From Armatimonadota bacterium (GTDB lineage: Bacteria > Armatimonadota > UBA5829), in assembly GCA_012522575.1 (NCBI GenBank), contig JAAYKE010000048.1, forward strand, positions 1-33,572: a stretch of 33,572 nt of DNA. Direction: 5' to 3'. The translations under genes and the position numbers were made by a program. Below the pieces are notes generated by a model. It was given only the letters and a program-made list of their open reading frames with translations, did not search any database and was not told where the DNA came from. Below are positions 21,942-26,368 of this stretch, one piece after another (within the stretch, counting starts at the first letter, position 1; the number at the start of each line of letters is the position of its first letter).

Positions 21942-22997
21942 CTACACAGGTTTCAGGCTGTCGAGTATCTCTGTTACGCTCAAGTCCGCAGCGGCCATCA
22001 CCTCATCAGACGCACCGTAATAAATCGTTACCGTGTCGCCCCGAACAATGGCCCCGCAGCTAAATACAACATTTGCCTTGAAGCCGGATGTTTCATAGTC
22101 CATCTCAGGTTCCAGAATCGGGTAGGGGCTTTTCGCGATCACTTTTTCGGGATACTCCGCATCAAGCAACGCTGCGCCGAGGCAATAGCGGTCATCGGTT
22201 GTGGCTGCGTGATATATTTCCAGCCATCCCCTATCCGTCATAAACGGCACCGCTCCTCCGCCAAGTCGTCCGCCTTCCCATGTCCCTGCCGTGCACCCCA
22301 GCAACAGCGCGTGTTCCCCCCAGTGAATGAGGTCTTCGGAATACGCGATCCACATATTCGGCGCGCCCATCATCTTCGGCTGAGGACGATGCAAAGCGAC
22401 ATATTTGCCGCGCACTTTTTCCGGGAAAATCATCGCGTCCATATTCTCAGGAGGGAAAATAATACCGTGCTTCGTCCAGTTTACAAAATCTTTTGTGCTG
22501 GCCAGGCATTGGGTTATAGCAAACGGCGCAACGCCCTTATAGACAATCCAATATGTATCATCCAGCTTTGTTATGCGAGGGTCCTCAAGGCCATAGGCTT
22601 CATAGGGCTGATCGGGCCACAACGATGGCTTCTCTTCGACGGTAAAATTGTGACCATCTTTGCTGCGAGCTAGCCTCAGATGAGAGATCGAGGTCAGGAG
22701 CATCCCATCAGGTGTCCCTATGACGCGCGGGTCGCTGAAATCATACCTCGAGTCGCCTTTATTAAATTCAATAATCTTAAGAGCCGGTCGGTTGTCGGCA
22801 AAGTCTATGATCGGAACAAGCGCAACCTCAGGGTCAGTCGAGATCGGCCTCTCAGCCACCCGCATCAACATCAATATCTCGTCTTGGTGCTCAATCACTC
22901 CGGCATTGAACGCGGACATTACCTCCCAACCCTCGAACGTGGGCGGCACGTCATGCTGGGTCACGATCGGGTTTTGAGGAAAACGACGAACCTTCAT
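21942..22997 (-). CDS. GH130 family glycoside phosphorylase/hydrolase
   Basis: A 351-residue five-bladed beta-propeller enzyme of family GH130. Recognised features are NPIVTQHDVPP at the N-terminus, SAFNAGVI, the strongly conserved YGLEDPRITK, WEGGRLGGGAVP and IYHAATTDDRYCLGAALLD. Most family members phosphorolyse beta-mannosides, releasing mannose-1-phosphate; some hydrolyse. No signal peptide is present, so it acts in the cytoplasm. It is the last gene of a four-gene leftward operon, 30 bases after the SDR stop, which suggests that the sugar released or its product feeds the aldolase/dehydrogenase steps. Subfamily and acceptor sugar are not resolvable by eye. Confidence 0.9.
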   Translation of the reverse strand: MKVRRFPQNPIVTQHDVPPTFEGWEVMSAFNAGVIEHQDEILMLMRVAERPISTDPEVALVPIIDFADNRPALKIIEFNKGDSRYDFSDPRVIGTPDGMLLTSISHLRLARSKDGHNFTVEEKPSLWPDQPYEAYGLEDPRITKLDDTYWIVYKGVAPFAITQCLASTKDFVNWTKHGIIFPPENMDAMIFPEKVRGKYVALHRPQPKMMGAPNMWIAYSEDLIHWGEHALLLGCTAGTWEGGRLGGGAVPFMTDRGWLEIYHAATTDDRYCLGAALLDAEYPEKVIAKSPYPILEPEMDYETSGFKANVVFSCGAIVRGDTVTIYYGASDEVMAAADLSVTEILDSLKPV

Positions 22998-23027: not shown

Positions 23028-23813
23028 CTATCTCATCTCCTGGCCGCCGGTGATATTTATTGCCTGGCCGGTCATATAACTGGCCTCATCAGATGCAATA
23101 AATGCCACGGCATTTGTCACATCATCATACGTACAGCCGCGGCCCAACGGCACTTGATCCATATATTTCCTGCGCACATCCTCCACGCTGATGCCCTGAG
23201 TATGCGCATATTGCTCGAAGAGGCTGTCCTGCCAGAGGGTTCCGTCAAGCAAATTGCCCGGACACACAGCGTTCACTCTAACCCCAAACTGCGCCATTTC
23301 CAGCGCCAGGCTCTGGGTCAAACCGATGCCGCCGAACTTGCTGGCCGCATAAGCGGAATTTCGAAAGCTGCCCTTTTTCCCGGATTTGGAGTTGATCTGG
23401 ATGATCACGCCGCTCTTTTGCCTCTGCATTATCTGGCACGCATGCTTCGCGCAAATCATATAGCCCACAAGGTTTACTTCGATCACCTGTCGCCATTCGC
23501 TCACCGGAAACATTGTGATCTCGCCGGCCTTAAGGATTCCGGCGTTTGCTATCAGTATATCCAGCCTGCCAAAATTGCCGTCGATATCCTCCATCGCGGT
23601 ATGGACGGCGAAATCGTCCGTCACATCAAGACCGAGTCCGAGCGTCGTCACTCCATATTTTTCGCCGATTTCCTTTGCGGTCGCCTTCGCCTTATCCTCA
23701 TTTATGTCCGCTGCTATGACGACCGCCCCTTCGCTGGCGAATCTTTCGCAGATCGCCTGCCCAAGACCTTGAGCGCCCCCCGTGACCAAGGCTACTTTAT
23801 CTTTGAAGCGCAT
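23028..23813 (-). CDS. srlD: SDR oxidoreductase, sorbitol-6-phosphate 2-dehydrogenase-like
   Basis: A 261-residue short-chain dehydrogenase. The nucleotide-binding motif is TGGAQGLGQAI, followed by IANAGILKAG and the catalytic segment INSKSGKKGSFRNSAYAASK with YxxxK. The run SKFGGIGLTQSLALEMAQFG, then KYMDQVPLGRGCTYDDV and the end TGQAINITGGQEM closely resemble E. coli SrlD, which oxidises D-sorbitol 6-phosphate to D-fructose 6-phosphate with NAD. Substrate assignment is an inference. I prefer ATG 23813 (opening RFKDKVALVTGG) because GGAG lies 6 bases upstream; the tracked start at 23825 adds four residues. It sits between the MDR gene (20-base gap) and the GH130 gene. Confidence 0.85.
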   Translation of the reverse strand: MRFKDKVALVTGGAQGLGQAICERFASEGAVVIAADINEDKAKATAKEIGEKYGVTTLGLGLDVTDDFAVHTAMEDIDGNFGRLDILIANAGILKAGEITMFPVSEWRQVIEVNLVGYMICAKHACQIMQRQKSGVIIQINSKSGKKGSFRNSAYAASKFGGIGLTQSLALEMAQFGVRVNAVCPGNLLDGTLWQDSLFEQYAHTQGISVEDVRRKYMDQVPLGRGCTYDDVTNAVAFIASDEASYMTGQAINITGGQEMR

Positions 23814-23846
23814 ATTCATCTCCATTTTACTGCACCGTTTTACGCA

Positions 23847-25589
23847 TCATATTTTAAGCGCACTGCGCAAAAGCTCTTCCTCTGCTTCATTAGTCCAGAA
23901 TTTGCCGTCTTTGAGCTTGGCAAACACGTTCGGCATCACTTTATCGAGATCGACCAAAGCCGTCAGCGGCAGTTCGATAGACGGGAAAATAACGGTCTTG
24001 CCGGGATAGCTAGCTTCCTTGACCGCCCGAACCCCTTCCGCCATCGCGTTTATGCCACCTATGGCGGCCAGCGAATGCCGGGTGGGCAGTTCTCCGGATT
24101 CAGTGAAACCGAGGGTGTCGACCATATCCTGCGGCCTCGAACCGCTGGATCCAACGAATCTGTTGCCCTTCATATATGTCGCGCTGAGATCGAGGTTTGC
24201 CATAGTGCCCCTTGGGACGCCGGCAAATATATTCATCAGGCCGTCATTTGCCAGATAAGGAATCGCCTGCTCGATAAGCGCAGCCGCCGGAACCAGCACA
24301 ACTATATCGTCGAATCCGTCTGCGCCGGTGATTTTTTCGATAGCCGCATCTACGGCCCCTTGACCTTCTCGCACAGGGTTTACATAAATAACCTCTATGC
24401 CGTGTTCGCGAACGTTGTCGGCAATGCTCTCTTTCAGGCATTCCAACCGATAGTCATCGACGTCGGTGCAAAGCATTTTCTTTGGCCCATCGGCCATCTT
24501 CGCGGCGCGCTGAACGTGCATGCTTCCCATCGCGCCCGCAGCTCCCAAAAACCACGTAGTCCCGCCGGGTTTGAGTTCGCTTACCCGGCTGGATGTATAG
24601 GCGTCGGCGACGGATTGTGATTTGGTCCCCACGTAGTCGATATAATCATAATGCACTCGTCCGACATCGATACTTACGGGCCGAGAGATCGCTTTATCGG
24701 CCGCAATAGCCATCACGGCGTTTTTGGCGAGGTGTGCGCCAAGGGCTTCCACTAGTTCGGCATCCGGGGTCCCGAATATTACGACATCATCAAACCCTTC
24801 CGCCCCGGTCCGCTCCTGTGCCAATGCGACTACATTGCCTGCAGCGAGTTTATCGATTGCTATAATCTCGGAATTGCCTTCGAGCCCTTTGCGGATGGCC
24901 GACGCGACTGCATCGGAAAGTCCCGCCAGAATAGCCTTAGCCGGAGCATTTTCCGTGCATATCAGATTGCCGACATCATAATCCCCATCGGCGCAACCGA
25001 CAAAGAGTGCGACTCCGCCGGGTTTCAAACACTTGCGGGGATGGATTCGATATGAGGCCACCACGCAAGTCCACGGCTCAACCAGCGCCGCTTCCGCATA
25101 GCCCGTGTCCGGCTGCACGGGGATAAGGTATGAACCCTCATCTCCATCAAGAACAGGCTCCCCGATGATGCCATACTGCTGCATTCCACCCGGCAGCACA
25201 TAGCCGTATGCTATGCTTGCTCCCTTAAAATATACGTCGGCCTGCACTATATAACGGCTGCCCGGCTTATATATATCTTTTCGGTTGGCCCCGGCCTCGA
25301 TCACCGTAAGTGAGACCTCATGGCCGGGAGTTACCGGGTCGGCCACCATATCGCGTCCCGTTATTCGCGGGTGGGTCGAGCCTTGAGTGATCAGCTTTAC
25401 ATCAGAAAAACATATCCCGATCGCATCGACCCTGACCAGAATTTCATCATCTTTCGGGGAGATCACCGGCAAAACATCCGGCCCGTCCACCCCGAAATTC
25501 TCCACTCCGGCTTCTTTCATCCGCCAGGCGATATTGGTCTGTGGCAGATCATAGTCCAGATTTTTATATCTCTTCAAGGCGTCGCTCAT
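23847..25589 (-). CDS. Zinc-type medium-chain dehydrogenase (SorE-like) with duplicated nucleotide-binding domain (580 aa)
   Basis: An MDR-superfamily alcohol dehydrogenase, unusually long (family members are about 340-410 residues). The GroES-like catalytic domain holds probable zinc ligands Cys60 (IGICFSDVK) and His90-Glu91 (PGHEV), with VEPWTCVVASYR nearby. Two copies of the Rossmann region follow. Copy 1 (about residues 185-335) begins LKPGGVALFVGC and contains TGAEGFDDVVIFG. Copy 2 (about 337-490) begins LKPGGTTWFLGAAGAMG and contains TGADGFDDIVVLV. Copy 2 keeps a usable GxxGxxG motif; copy 1 reads GCADGDYDVG and is probably unable to bind NAD(P). The end resembles L-sorbose-1-phosphate reductase-type enzymes. 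The start at ATG 25589 has AGAGG 8 bases upstream; GTG 25598 is the alternative. It lies 20 bases downstream of the aldolase gene. Confidence 0.85.
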   Translation of the reverse strand: MSDALKRYKNLDYDLPQTNIAWRMKEAGVENFGVDGPDVLPVISPKDDEILVRVDAIGICFSDVKLITQGSTHPRITGRDMVADPVTPGHEVSLTVIEAGANRKDIYKPGSRYIVQADVYFKGASIAYGYVLPGGMQQYGIIGEPVLDGDEGSYLIPVQPDTGYAEAALVEPWTCVVASYRIHPRKCLKPGGVALFVGCADGDYDVGNLICTENAPAKAILAGLSDAVASAIRKGLEGNSEIIAIDKLAAGNVVALAQERTGAEGFDDVVIFGTPDAELVEALGAHLAKNAVMAIAADKAISRPVSIDVGRVHYDYIDYVGTKSQSVADAYTSSRVSELKPGGTTWFLGAAGAMGSMHVQRAAKMADGPKKMLCTDVDDYRLECLKESIADNVREHGIEVIYVNPVREGQGAVDAAIEKITGADGFDDIVVLVPAAALIEQAIPYLANDGLMNIFAGVPRGTMANLDLSATYMKGNRFVGSSGSRPQDMVDTLGFTESGELPTRHSLAAIGGINAMAEGVRAVKEASYPGKTVIFPSIELPLTALVDLDKVMPNVFAKLKDGKFWTNEAEEELLRSALKI

Positions 25590-25609: not shown

Positions 25610-26368
25610 CTATTTGAACTGTTGCTTTCGATAATGCTCATCAGGTCGAGTGTAAATTCGGTTCACATTTTCCTTAGTAAAATAATTTACCCCGCCAAAA
25701 ACGTGCGCTCCGGCCAGCACCTTGCAGGTCTTGCACCACATCGCCGTGATTGCTTCTACTTCGTGGGCGGTTTTGCCCAGCGCTATCATACCGTGGTTCT
25801 GAATCAGAATCACTTTAGGGTTGCAGTTTTGCTCTTCGACGAACTTCAGGGAGCGTTGTCGAATAATTCGCGCCAATTCCAGCCCGGGATCGACATATTC
25901 TATATAGATCGGCTCCACTCCGCAGTAGACTATCTCGTCCGGGAAAATCCTGCCTCGCAGAATCTTTTCGGCATTGACGCTGCACAGAAGCGAATTGACA
26001 GAAGTCGGGTGCGTATGGCCGACGAAGTTTACATCCGGCAGGCTCAGAAGAAAAGCGTGAAAAGTCGTCTCAACCGATGGCTTAACCTTGTTTTCAGGAT
26101 CGGCGCAGACCGCAAAGAGAGCGTCTTTTATTTCCTCATCGCTCAAGTCCCCGGAATCCAGAATCGCCAGCGCGTCCCTGCTTTTCACCTTCACAAATGT
26201 GTCATTATCCGATTTCGAAAGATATTTGCCACTGGCTTTGACGAAGAAGTAGTCGTCGTCTATCTTCGCCGAGGTGTTACCCTCTCCGAGAATAACATAG
26301 TCACTCTCAGGCTCGCCAAGCAGCAGCGACATATTTACTAGCTCACTTAGAACAGTTTGTTCATCCAT
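25610..26368 (-). CDS. Class II aldolase/adducin family protein
   Basis: A 252-residue zinc-dependent class II aldolase of the fuculose/rhamnulose-phosphate type. It shows the phosphate-binding loop LGEGNTSAK, a catalytic-position Glu100 in SVETTFHAF, zinc ligands His118 and His120 in VGHTHP, and a third histidine in IQNHGMIALG. Such enzymes split a ketose-1-phosphate into dihydroxyacetone phosphate and an aldehyde. The ATG has a strong GGAGGAT upstream. It is the first gene of a leftward operon with an MDR dehydrogenase, an SrlD-like SDR and GH130, suggesting breakdown of a phosphorylated polyol or ketose; no kinase or transporter is seen. The exact substrate is unknown. Confidence 0.88.
   Translation of the reverse strand: MDEQTVLSELVNMSLLLGEPESDYVILGEGNTSAKIDDDYFFVKASGKYLSKSDNDTFVKVKSRDALAILDSGDLSDEEIKDALFAVCADPENKVKPSVETTFHAFLLSLPDVNFVGHTHPTSVNSLLCSVNAEKILRGRIFPDEIVYCGVEPIYIEYVDPGLELARIIRQRSLKFVEEQNCNPKVILIQNHGMIALGKTAHEVEAITAMWCKTCKVLAGAHVFGGVNYFTKENVNRIYTRPDEHYRKQQFK

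Follow-up and report, generated by a model that had tools for sequence, protein, structure and literature searches.

A conserved MDR dehydrogenase family of Armatimonadota with a tandemly duplicated Rossmann domain, the first copy of which may stand in for a dimer partner

The MDR gene in a stretch of 33,572 nucleotides of Armatimonadota DNA (the window; assembly GCA_012522575.1, contig JAAYKE010000048.1) encodes a protein with two Rossmann domains, D1 and D2, whereas textbook MDR chains carry one and associate into dimers or tetramers. Sequence comparison shows that D1 and D2 are homologous and go back to an old tandem duplication of the Rossmann domain between two halves of the catalytic domain, and that the ancestral motifs are sorted between the copies by complementary loss. 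We consider it an even call that this MDR works as a dehydrogenase with zinc and NAD(H) and carries D1 as an internalised dimer partner, which would make the chain a pseudo-dimer with one active site. The features of the gene are as follows.

23847..25589, minus strand: MDR gene, 580-residue two-Rossmann zinc MDR with the layout catN-D1-D2-catC.
25044..25589, minus strand: catalytic (GroES-like) N-terminal part, residues 1-182 (Pfam ADH_N at 47-139, E=2.8e-9).
24579..25043, minus strand: D1, degenerate Rossmann domain, residues about 183-337 (homology to D2 and SorE/YggP, and fold prediction).
24096..24578, minus strand: D2, cofactor-binding Rossmann domain, residues about 338-498 (Pfam ADH_zinc_N at 354-493).
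23850..24095, minus strand: catalytic C-terminal part, a SorE-like tail, residues about 492/499-580 (alignment to the SorE/YggP C-terminus, including the W-x-x-x-AE motif).
25410..25412, minus strand: Cys60, catalytic zinc ligand (G-I-C-F-S-D).
25317..25322, minus strand: His90-Glu91 (GHE), catalytic zinc site.
25077..25079, minus strand: Glu171 (EPWxC), catalytic zinc site.
24648..24653, minus strand: His313-Tyr314 (HY), kept in D1 only.
24525..24545, minus strand: GAAGAMG, cofactor glycine motif of D2, residues 349-355.
24138..24146, minus strand: Ser482-Gly483-Ser484 of D2, the expected cofactor/nicotinamide loop.

The reading frame gives 580 residues from the ATG at 25589 and 583 from a GTG start. 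It is intact at about 580 residues in about 100 related genomes, which rules out a frameshift, an assembly artefact or a pseudogene. The protein scores 37.6 bits against ADH_N (cut-off 23.5) and 38.2 bits against ADH_zinc_N (cut-off 31.8), placing it among the zinc-dependent MDRs. For motifs and trees, we used a sample of 70 two-domain and 19 single-domain proteins; the Cys, His/Glu and Glu ligand set that marks zinc-dependent MDRs is present as C60, H90, E91 and E171 in all 70 of the former. The Pfam scan matched no family in D1 and recognised D2 alone as a Rossmann domain, so that D1 is missed by standard annotation. One Rossmann domain per chain is the usual arrangement, not a strict requirement, and the two homologous regions thus make a variant layout inside the zinc-dependent MDR superfamily. 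An earlier note on this DNA had described a catalytic domain followed by both Rossmann domains as non-standard for MDRs, which holds with the addition that a catalytic part also follows D2 (about residues 492-580).

The same note had proposed the tandem duplication, and the comparisons bear it out. Local alignment of D1 with D2 yields z=16.6, with none of 1,000 shuffles scoring as high, blastp aligns the two at 27% identity (E=2e-11), and the hhalign profile-profile comparison returns 99.7%. The repeated motifs lie at the spacing that the note had given, with LKPGG at residues 188-192 and 339-343, TGAEGFDD at 261-268 and TGADGFDD at 421-428. By partner, the median z of D1 is 7.0 against SorE/YggP, 5-6 against D2 and 0.9 against a generic MDR (galactitol-P DH), so the objection that D1 and D2 might align no better than unrelated MDRs fails. 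The shuffle z, blastp, the profile-profile comparison and the median z against SorE/YggP together rule out a chance likeness of two MDR domains. That D1 was acquired from a foreign MDR is unlikely, its sequence being nearer to SorE/YggP than to the generic MDR, although the branching among D1, D2 and SorE is poorly resolved.

AlphaFold predicts a Rossmann-like fold for both D1 and D2. The model of D1 alone (pLDDT 79, pTM 0.81) shows a Rossmann-like beta-alpha alternation without helix alphaA, and its best Foldseek matches are ADHs with a probability of 0.99-1.00, at a weak E of ~0.01 and a TMq of ~0.46. The full-length model, built from a four-sequence alignment, has a mean pLDDT of 62, with both Rossmann regions fairly good and the catalytic domain poor; its best Foldseek matches are MDRs, many with more than 500 aligned columns including gaps.

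Judged from its distribution, the two-Rossmann MDR is a conserved multi-phylum family, widespread in Armatimonadota, and no one-off oddity. In the phylum of the window, 163 of 291 genomes have a match (E<=1e-20), which covers the full length in about 100, and a few weaker matches are single-Rossmann relatives. Named records assign the family to Armatimonadota and include relatives from Lentisphaeria and Deinococcus, and the phylum of the Lentisphaeria genome (a Verrucomicrobiota-type group) holds both two-domain (~560 aa) and one-domain (~420 aa) forms. One scan for viral homologues found none. The one annotated record of a member that we saw is named “alcohol dehydrogenase catalytic domain-containing protein”, and the open-access literature yielded no description of an MDR with two Rossmann domains or of the motif partition.

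A tree of the catalytic domain separates the 70 two-domain proteins from the 19 single-domain ones with a support of 0.85, as would be expected if the duplication happened once. In the Rossmann-domain tree, the D1 sequences group together (support 1.0), as do the D2 sequences (0.89), while the order of the D1, D2 and SorE-type branches is poorly resolved. A recent duplication is ruled out by these separate clades, which extend across phyla, the support for D2 being moderate, with one stray sequence in an IQ-TREE subset.

Among named proteins, SorE and YggP come closest, with blastp E-values of 1e-25 to 2e-26 over the catalytic domain, the Rossmann domain and the C-terminal tail; each has one Rossmann domain, which can be aligned to D1 as well as to D2. 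SorE (L-sorbose-1-phosphate reductase, about 407 aa) reduces L-sorbose-1-phosphate to D-sorbitol-6-phosphate (PMC12817954). It shares the FDD, FAG, HY and SG[GS] motifs with the two-Rossmann MDR and is often paired with an SrlD-type SDR (SorD), but at 25-28% identity it carries all of these motifs on one Rossmann domain. Orthology to SorE does not fit the architecture or the operon, given 580 residues, two Rossmann domains and aldolase, SDR and GH130 neighbours, and PTS genes, a mark of the sor operon, are absent among the neighbours of the MDR gene. YggP and YggP-like dehydrogenases of ~420 aa belong to the same branch and are found in the same groups of bacteria, but have a single Rossmann domain with HY and SGG together. 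Two genomes from the family of the window itself, L125 and L126, have such a protein; in them the single-Rossmann YggP-like enzyme is 69% identical to L101, and there is no full-length two-domain match. The scyllo-inosose 3-dehydrogenase IolM and the other MDR equivalogs of NCBIfam were rejected, since the best score, 42.3 bits, falls far short of the cut-off, 450.

The motif counts show how the two copies divide what the relatives hold on one domain. In the single-domain proteins, GxxGxMG (or AxxGxMG), FAG, HY and SG[GS] lie together on the one Rossmann domain, with a few variants, HY and either SG[GS] or TG[GS] being found in all 19. In the two-domain proteins, HY is present in D1 in 70/70 and in D2 in 0/70, and GxxGxMG, FAG and SGS are present in D2 in 70/70 and essentially never in D1. 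The claim that D1 has lost the glycine motif which D2 retains thus extends to all homologues. The beta2 strand of D2 closes with an Asp in 69/70 proteins, suggesting NAD(H) rather than NADP(H) as the cofactor.

Within D1, conservation is uneven. Its cofactor half is the least conserved and fastest-evolving part of the protein, at 22% mean identity, compared with 36% for the C-terminal half of D1 and 40-56% elsewhere, and four of the seven conserved D1 positions fall within residues 305-322 (hypergeometric p=0.004). In four homologues (L074, L075, L076 and L119), D1 is cut to 105-121 residues by deletion of about 203-240, the old cofactor half, and HY is retained. The note had suggested that the extra domain became a regulatory or oligomerisation unit. 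Degenerate Rossmann domains often turn regulatory, and the variable first half of D1 could be read as remodelled to bind a metabolite, with D1 sensing this ligand. We regard such a role as improbable, since the half that would hold the ligand varies more than any other part of the protein and the four homologues have lost some of it, which argues against a shared ligand site. The retention of HY and loss of the cofactor motifs in D1, with the reverse in D2, instead favour a role in replacing an oligomer contact, so that the second part of the suggestion stands better than the first.

Ordinary MDR subunits pair via a strand of the Rossmann domain, close to the active-site cleft of the neighbour. 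From an alignment to horse liver ADH, HY would lie just after this pairing strand, next to residues 306-314, and we assume that Met306 and Leu309 of horse liver ADH are contributed by the neighbouring subunit. With these two placements, the reading that suits D1 best is that of a substitute partner within the chain, although HY could have some other role. One paper names both Met306 and Leu309 among the residues that interact with the substrate (PMC4028059); we looked for a literature statement that they come from the other subunit and found none.

Somewhat more tentatively than the pseudo-dimer itself, we propose that an obligate MDR dimer turned into a single-chain pseudo-dimer by one Rossmann duplication and complementary loss, leaving the cofactor motifs in D2 only and the partner-subunit motif HY in D1 only. 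The ancestor would be an MDR of the SorE/YggP branch. A tandem duplication then placed two copies of its Rossmann domain between the catalytic halves, the step that the sequence comparisons show, after which the copies would have shed complementary parts. D2, with the cofactor motifs that are seen in it, would bind NAD(H) and serve the single zinc site in cis. D1, which is not matched by a second catalytic domain, has lost the cofactor half and kept the HY segment. It may then pack on D2 within the chain like a second subunit and complete the active-site entrance; the packing, its geometry, the oligomeric state and the role of HY are all predicted here.

The D1-specific conserved segment coincides with the usual MDR dimer region, and this would also fit pairing of D1 with D1 between chains, with HY acting in trans and D2 purely catalytic, in line with the oligomerisation suggested in the note. 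Such a domain accommodates the motif data equally well except in one respect: the loss of HY from D2 in 70/70 proteins is unexplained unless D1 fully replaced D2 there. We consider pairing between chains unlikely, if clearly less so than ligand sensing.

Internal pairing of a Rossmann domain with a degenerate copy has a parallel in modular PKS/FAS ketoreductases, where a truncated, cofactor-less Rossmann copy packs on the active copy as an internal partner; these are SDRs, not MDRs, and the likeness is one of working principle with no homology claimed. Class II ketol-acid reductoisomerase sets a precedent for intragenic domain duplication (PMC8615647), and its ancestral class is dimeric or dodecameric (PMC8615647); this too is an analogy of working, and the duplicated part is of an unrelated fold.

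The MDR gene lies in a same-strand run of aldolase, MDR, SDR and GH130 genes with gaps of 20-30 bases.

25610..26368, minus strand: class II aldolase with an N-domain like that of RhaD/RhaEW, 20 bases upstream of the MDR gene (Pfam Aldolase_II, 7.1e-21); kept as a neighbour in many loci.
23028..23825, minus strand: SrlD-family (sorbitol-6-phosphate dehydrogenase) SDR, 21 bases downstream of the MDR gene (NCBIfam PRK12384, 357.4 bits, cut-off 307).
21942..22997, minus strand: GH130 mannoside phosphorylase-like gene, next in the run (Pfam, 9.6e-59); adjacent in close relatives only.

The MDR is probably a polyol or sugar-phosphate dehydrogenase. The pairing of SorE with SorD, and rhamnose pathways, offer the analogy from which we infer that it probably handles intermediates of ketose or deoxysugar catabolism together with the aldolase and the SrlD-like SDR. 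Away from the MDR locus, the window's genome carries an L-rhamnose isomerase above the cut-off and a rhamnulokinase relative below it. In locus L046 (301-11990), an MDR paralogue is flanked by the genes for pyruvate dehydrogenase E1 (fused alpha-beta) and E2, after which come E3, a class II aldolase, an SDR, L-rhamnose isomerase and a rhamnulokinase-like kinase. The rhamnose genes in both places make a role in deoxysugar or ketose catabolism plausible. The Deinococcus locus L034 (7216-11970) has the order SDR, MDR, FGGY kinase and GntR regulator, which suggests a carbohydrate kinase pathway. Distant homologues in L077 (5899-13040) and L079 (6423-11500) are accompanied by an SrlD-like SDR; the operon in L077, the one of the two whose families were scanned, also includes an E2-like acyltransferase, a KpsF/GutQ isomerase and a mannitol-1-phosphate dehydrogenase-like gene.

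Class II aldolase and SDR neighbours recur in many, though not all, of the 43 loci that we examined. Homologues of about 580 aa, which the note had proposed to seek, do exist, but its question whether all of them sit beside a class II aldolase and an SrlD-like SDR is answered in the negative, since most Armatimonadota loci examined have both and several have one or neither. Three MDR-SDR in-frame fusions of ~850-860 aa with a short linker occur in L050 (minus strand, from 9697), L051 (plus strand, from 8817) and L070 (plus strand, from 7960), all with TGxxxGxG and YxxxK intact in the SDR part. These fusions and the conserved aldolase-MDR-SDR operon would suit D1 as a docking scaffold for the SDR, the aldolase or both. 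That function is even less probable than ligand sensing, as many D1 proteins with neither neighbour (for example in L060, L061, L069, L071-L073 and L004) still keep D1 and HY.

For annotators, HY in D1 together with GxxGxMG, FAG and SGS in D2 offers a marker for the two-Rossmann MDR family. The family makes it possible to test directly what a second subunit adds to the active site of an MDR, and how an oligomer turns into a single chain. If the proposed history is true, duplication, degeneration and complementation would be readable within one protein.
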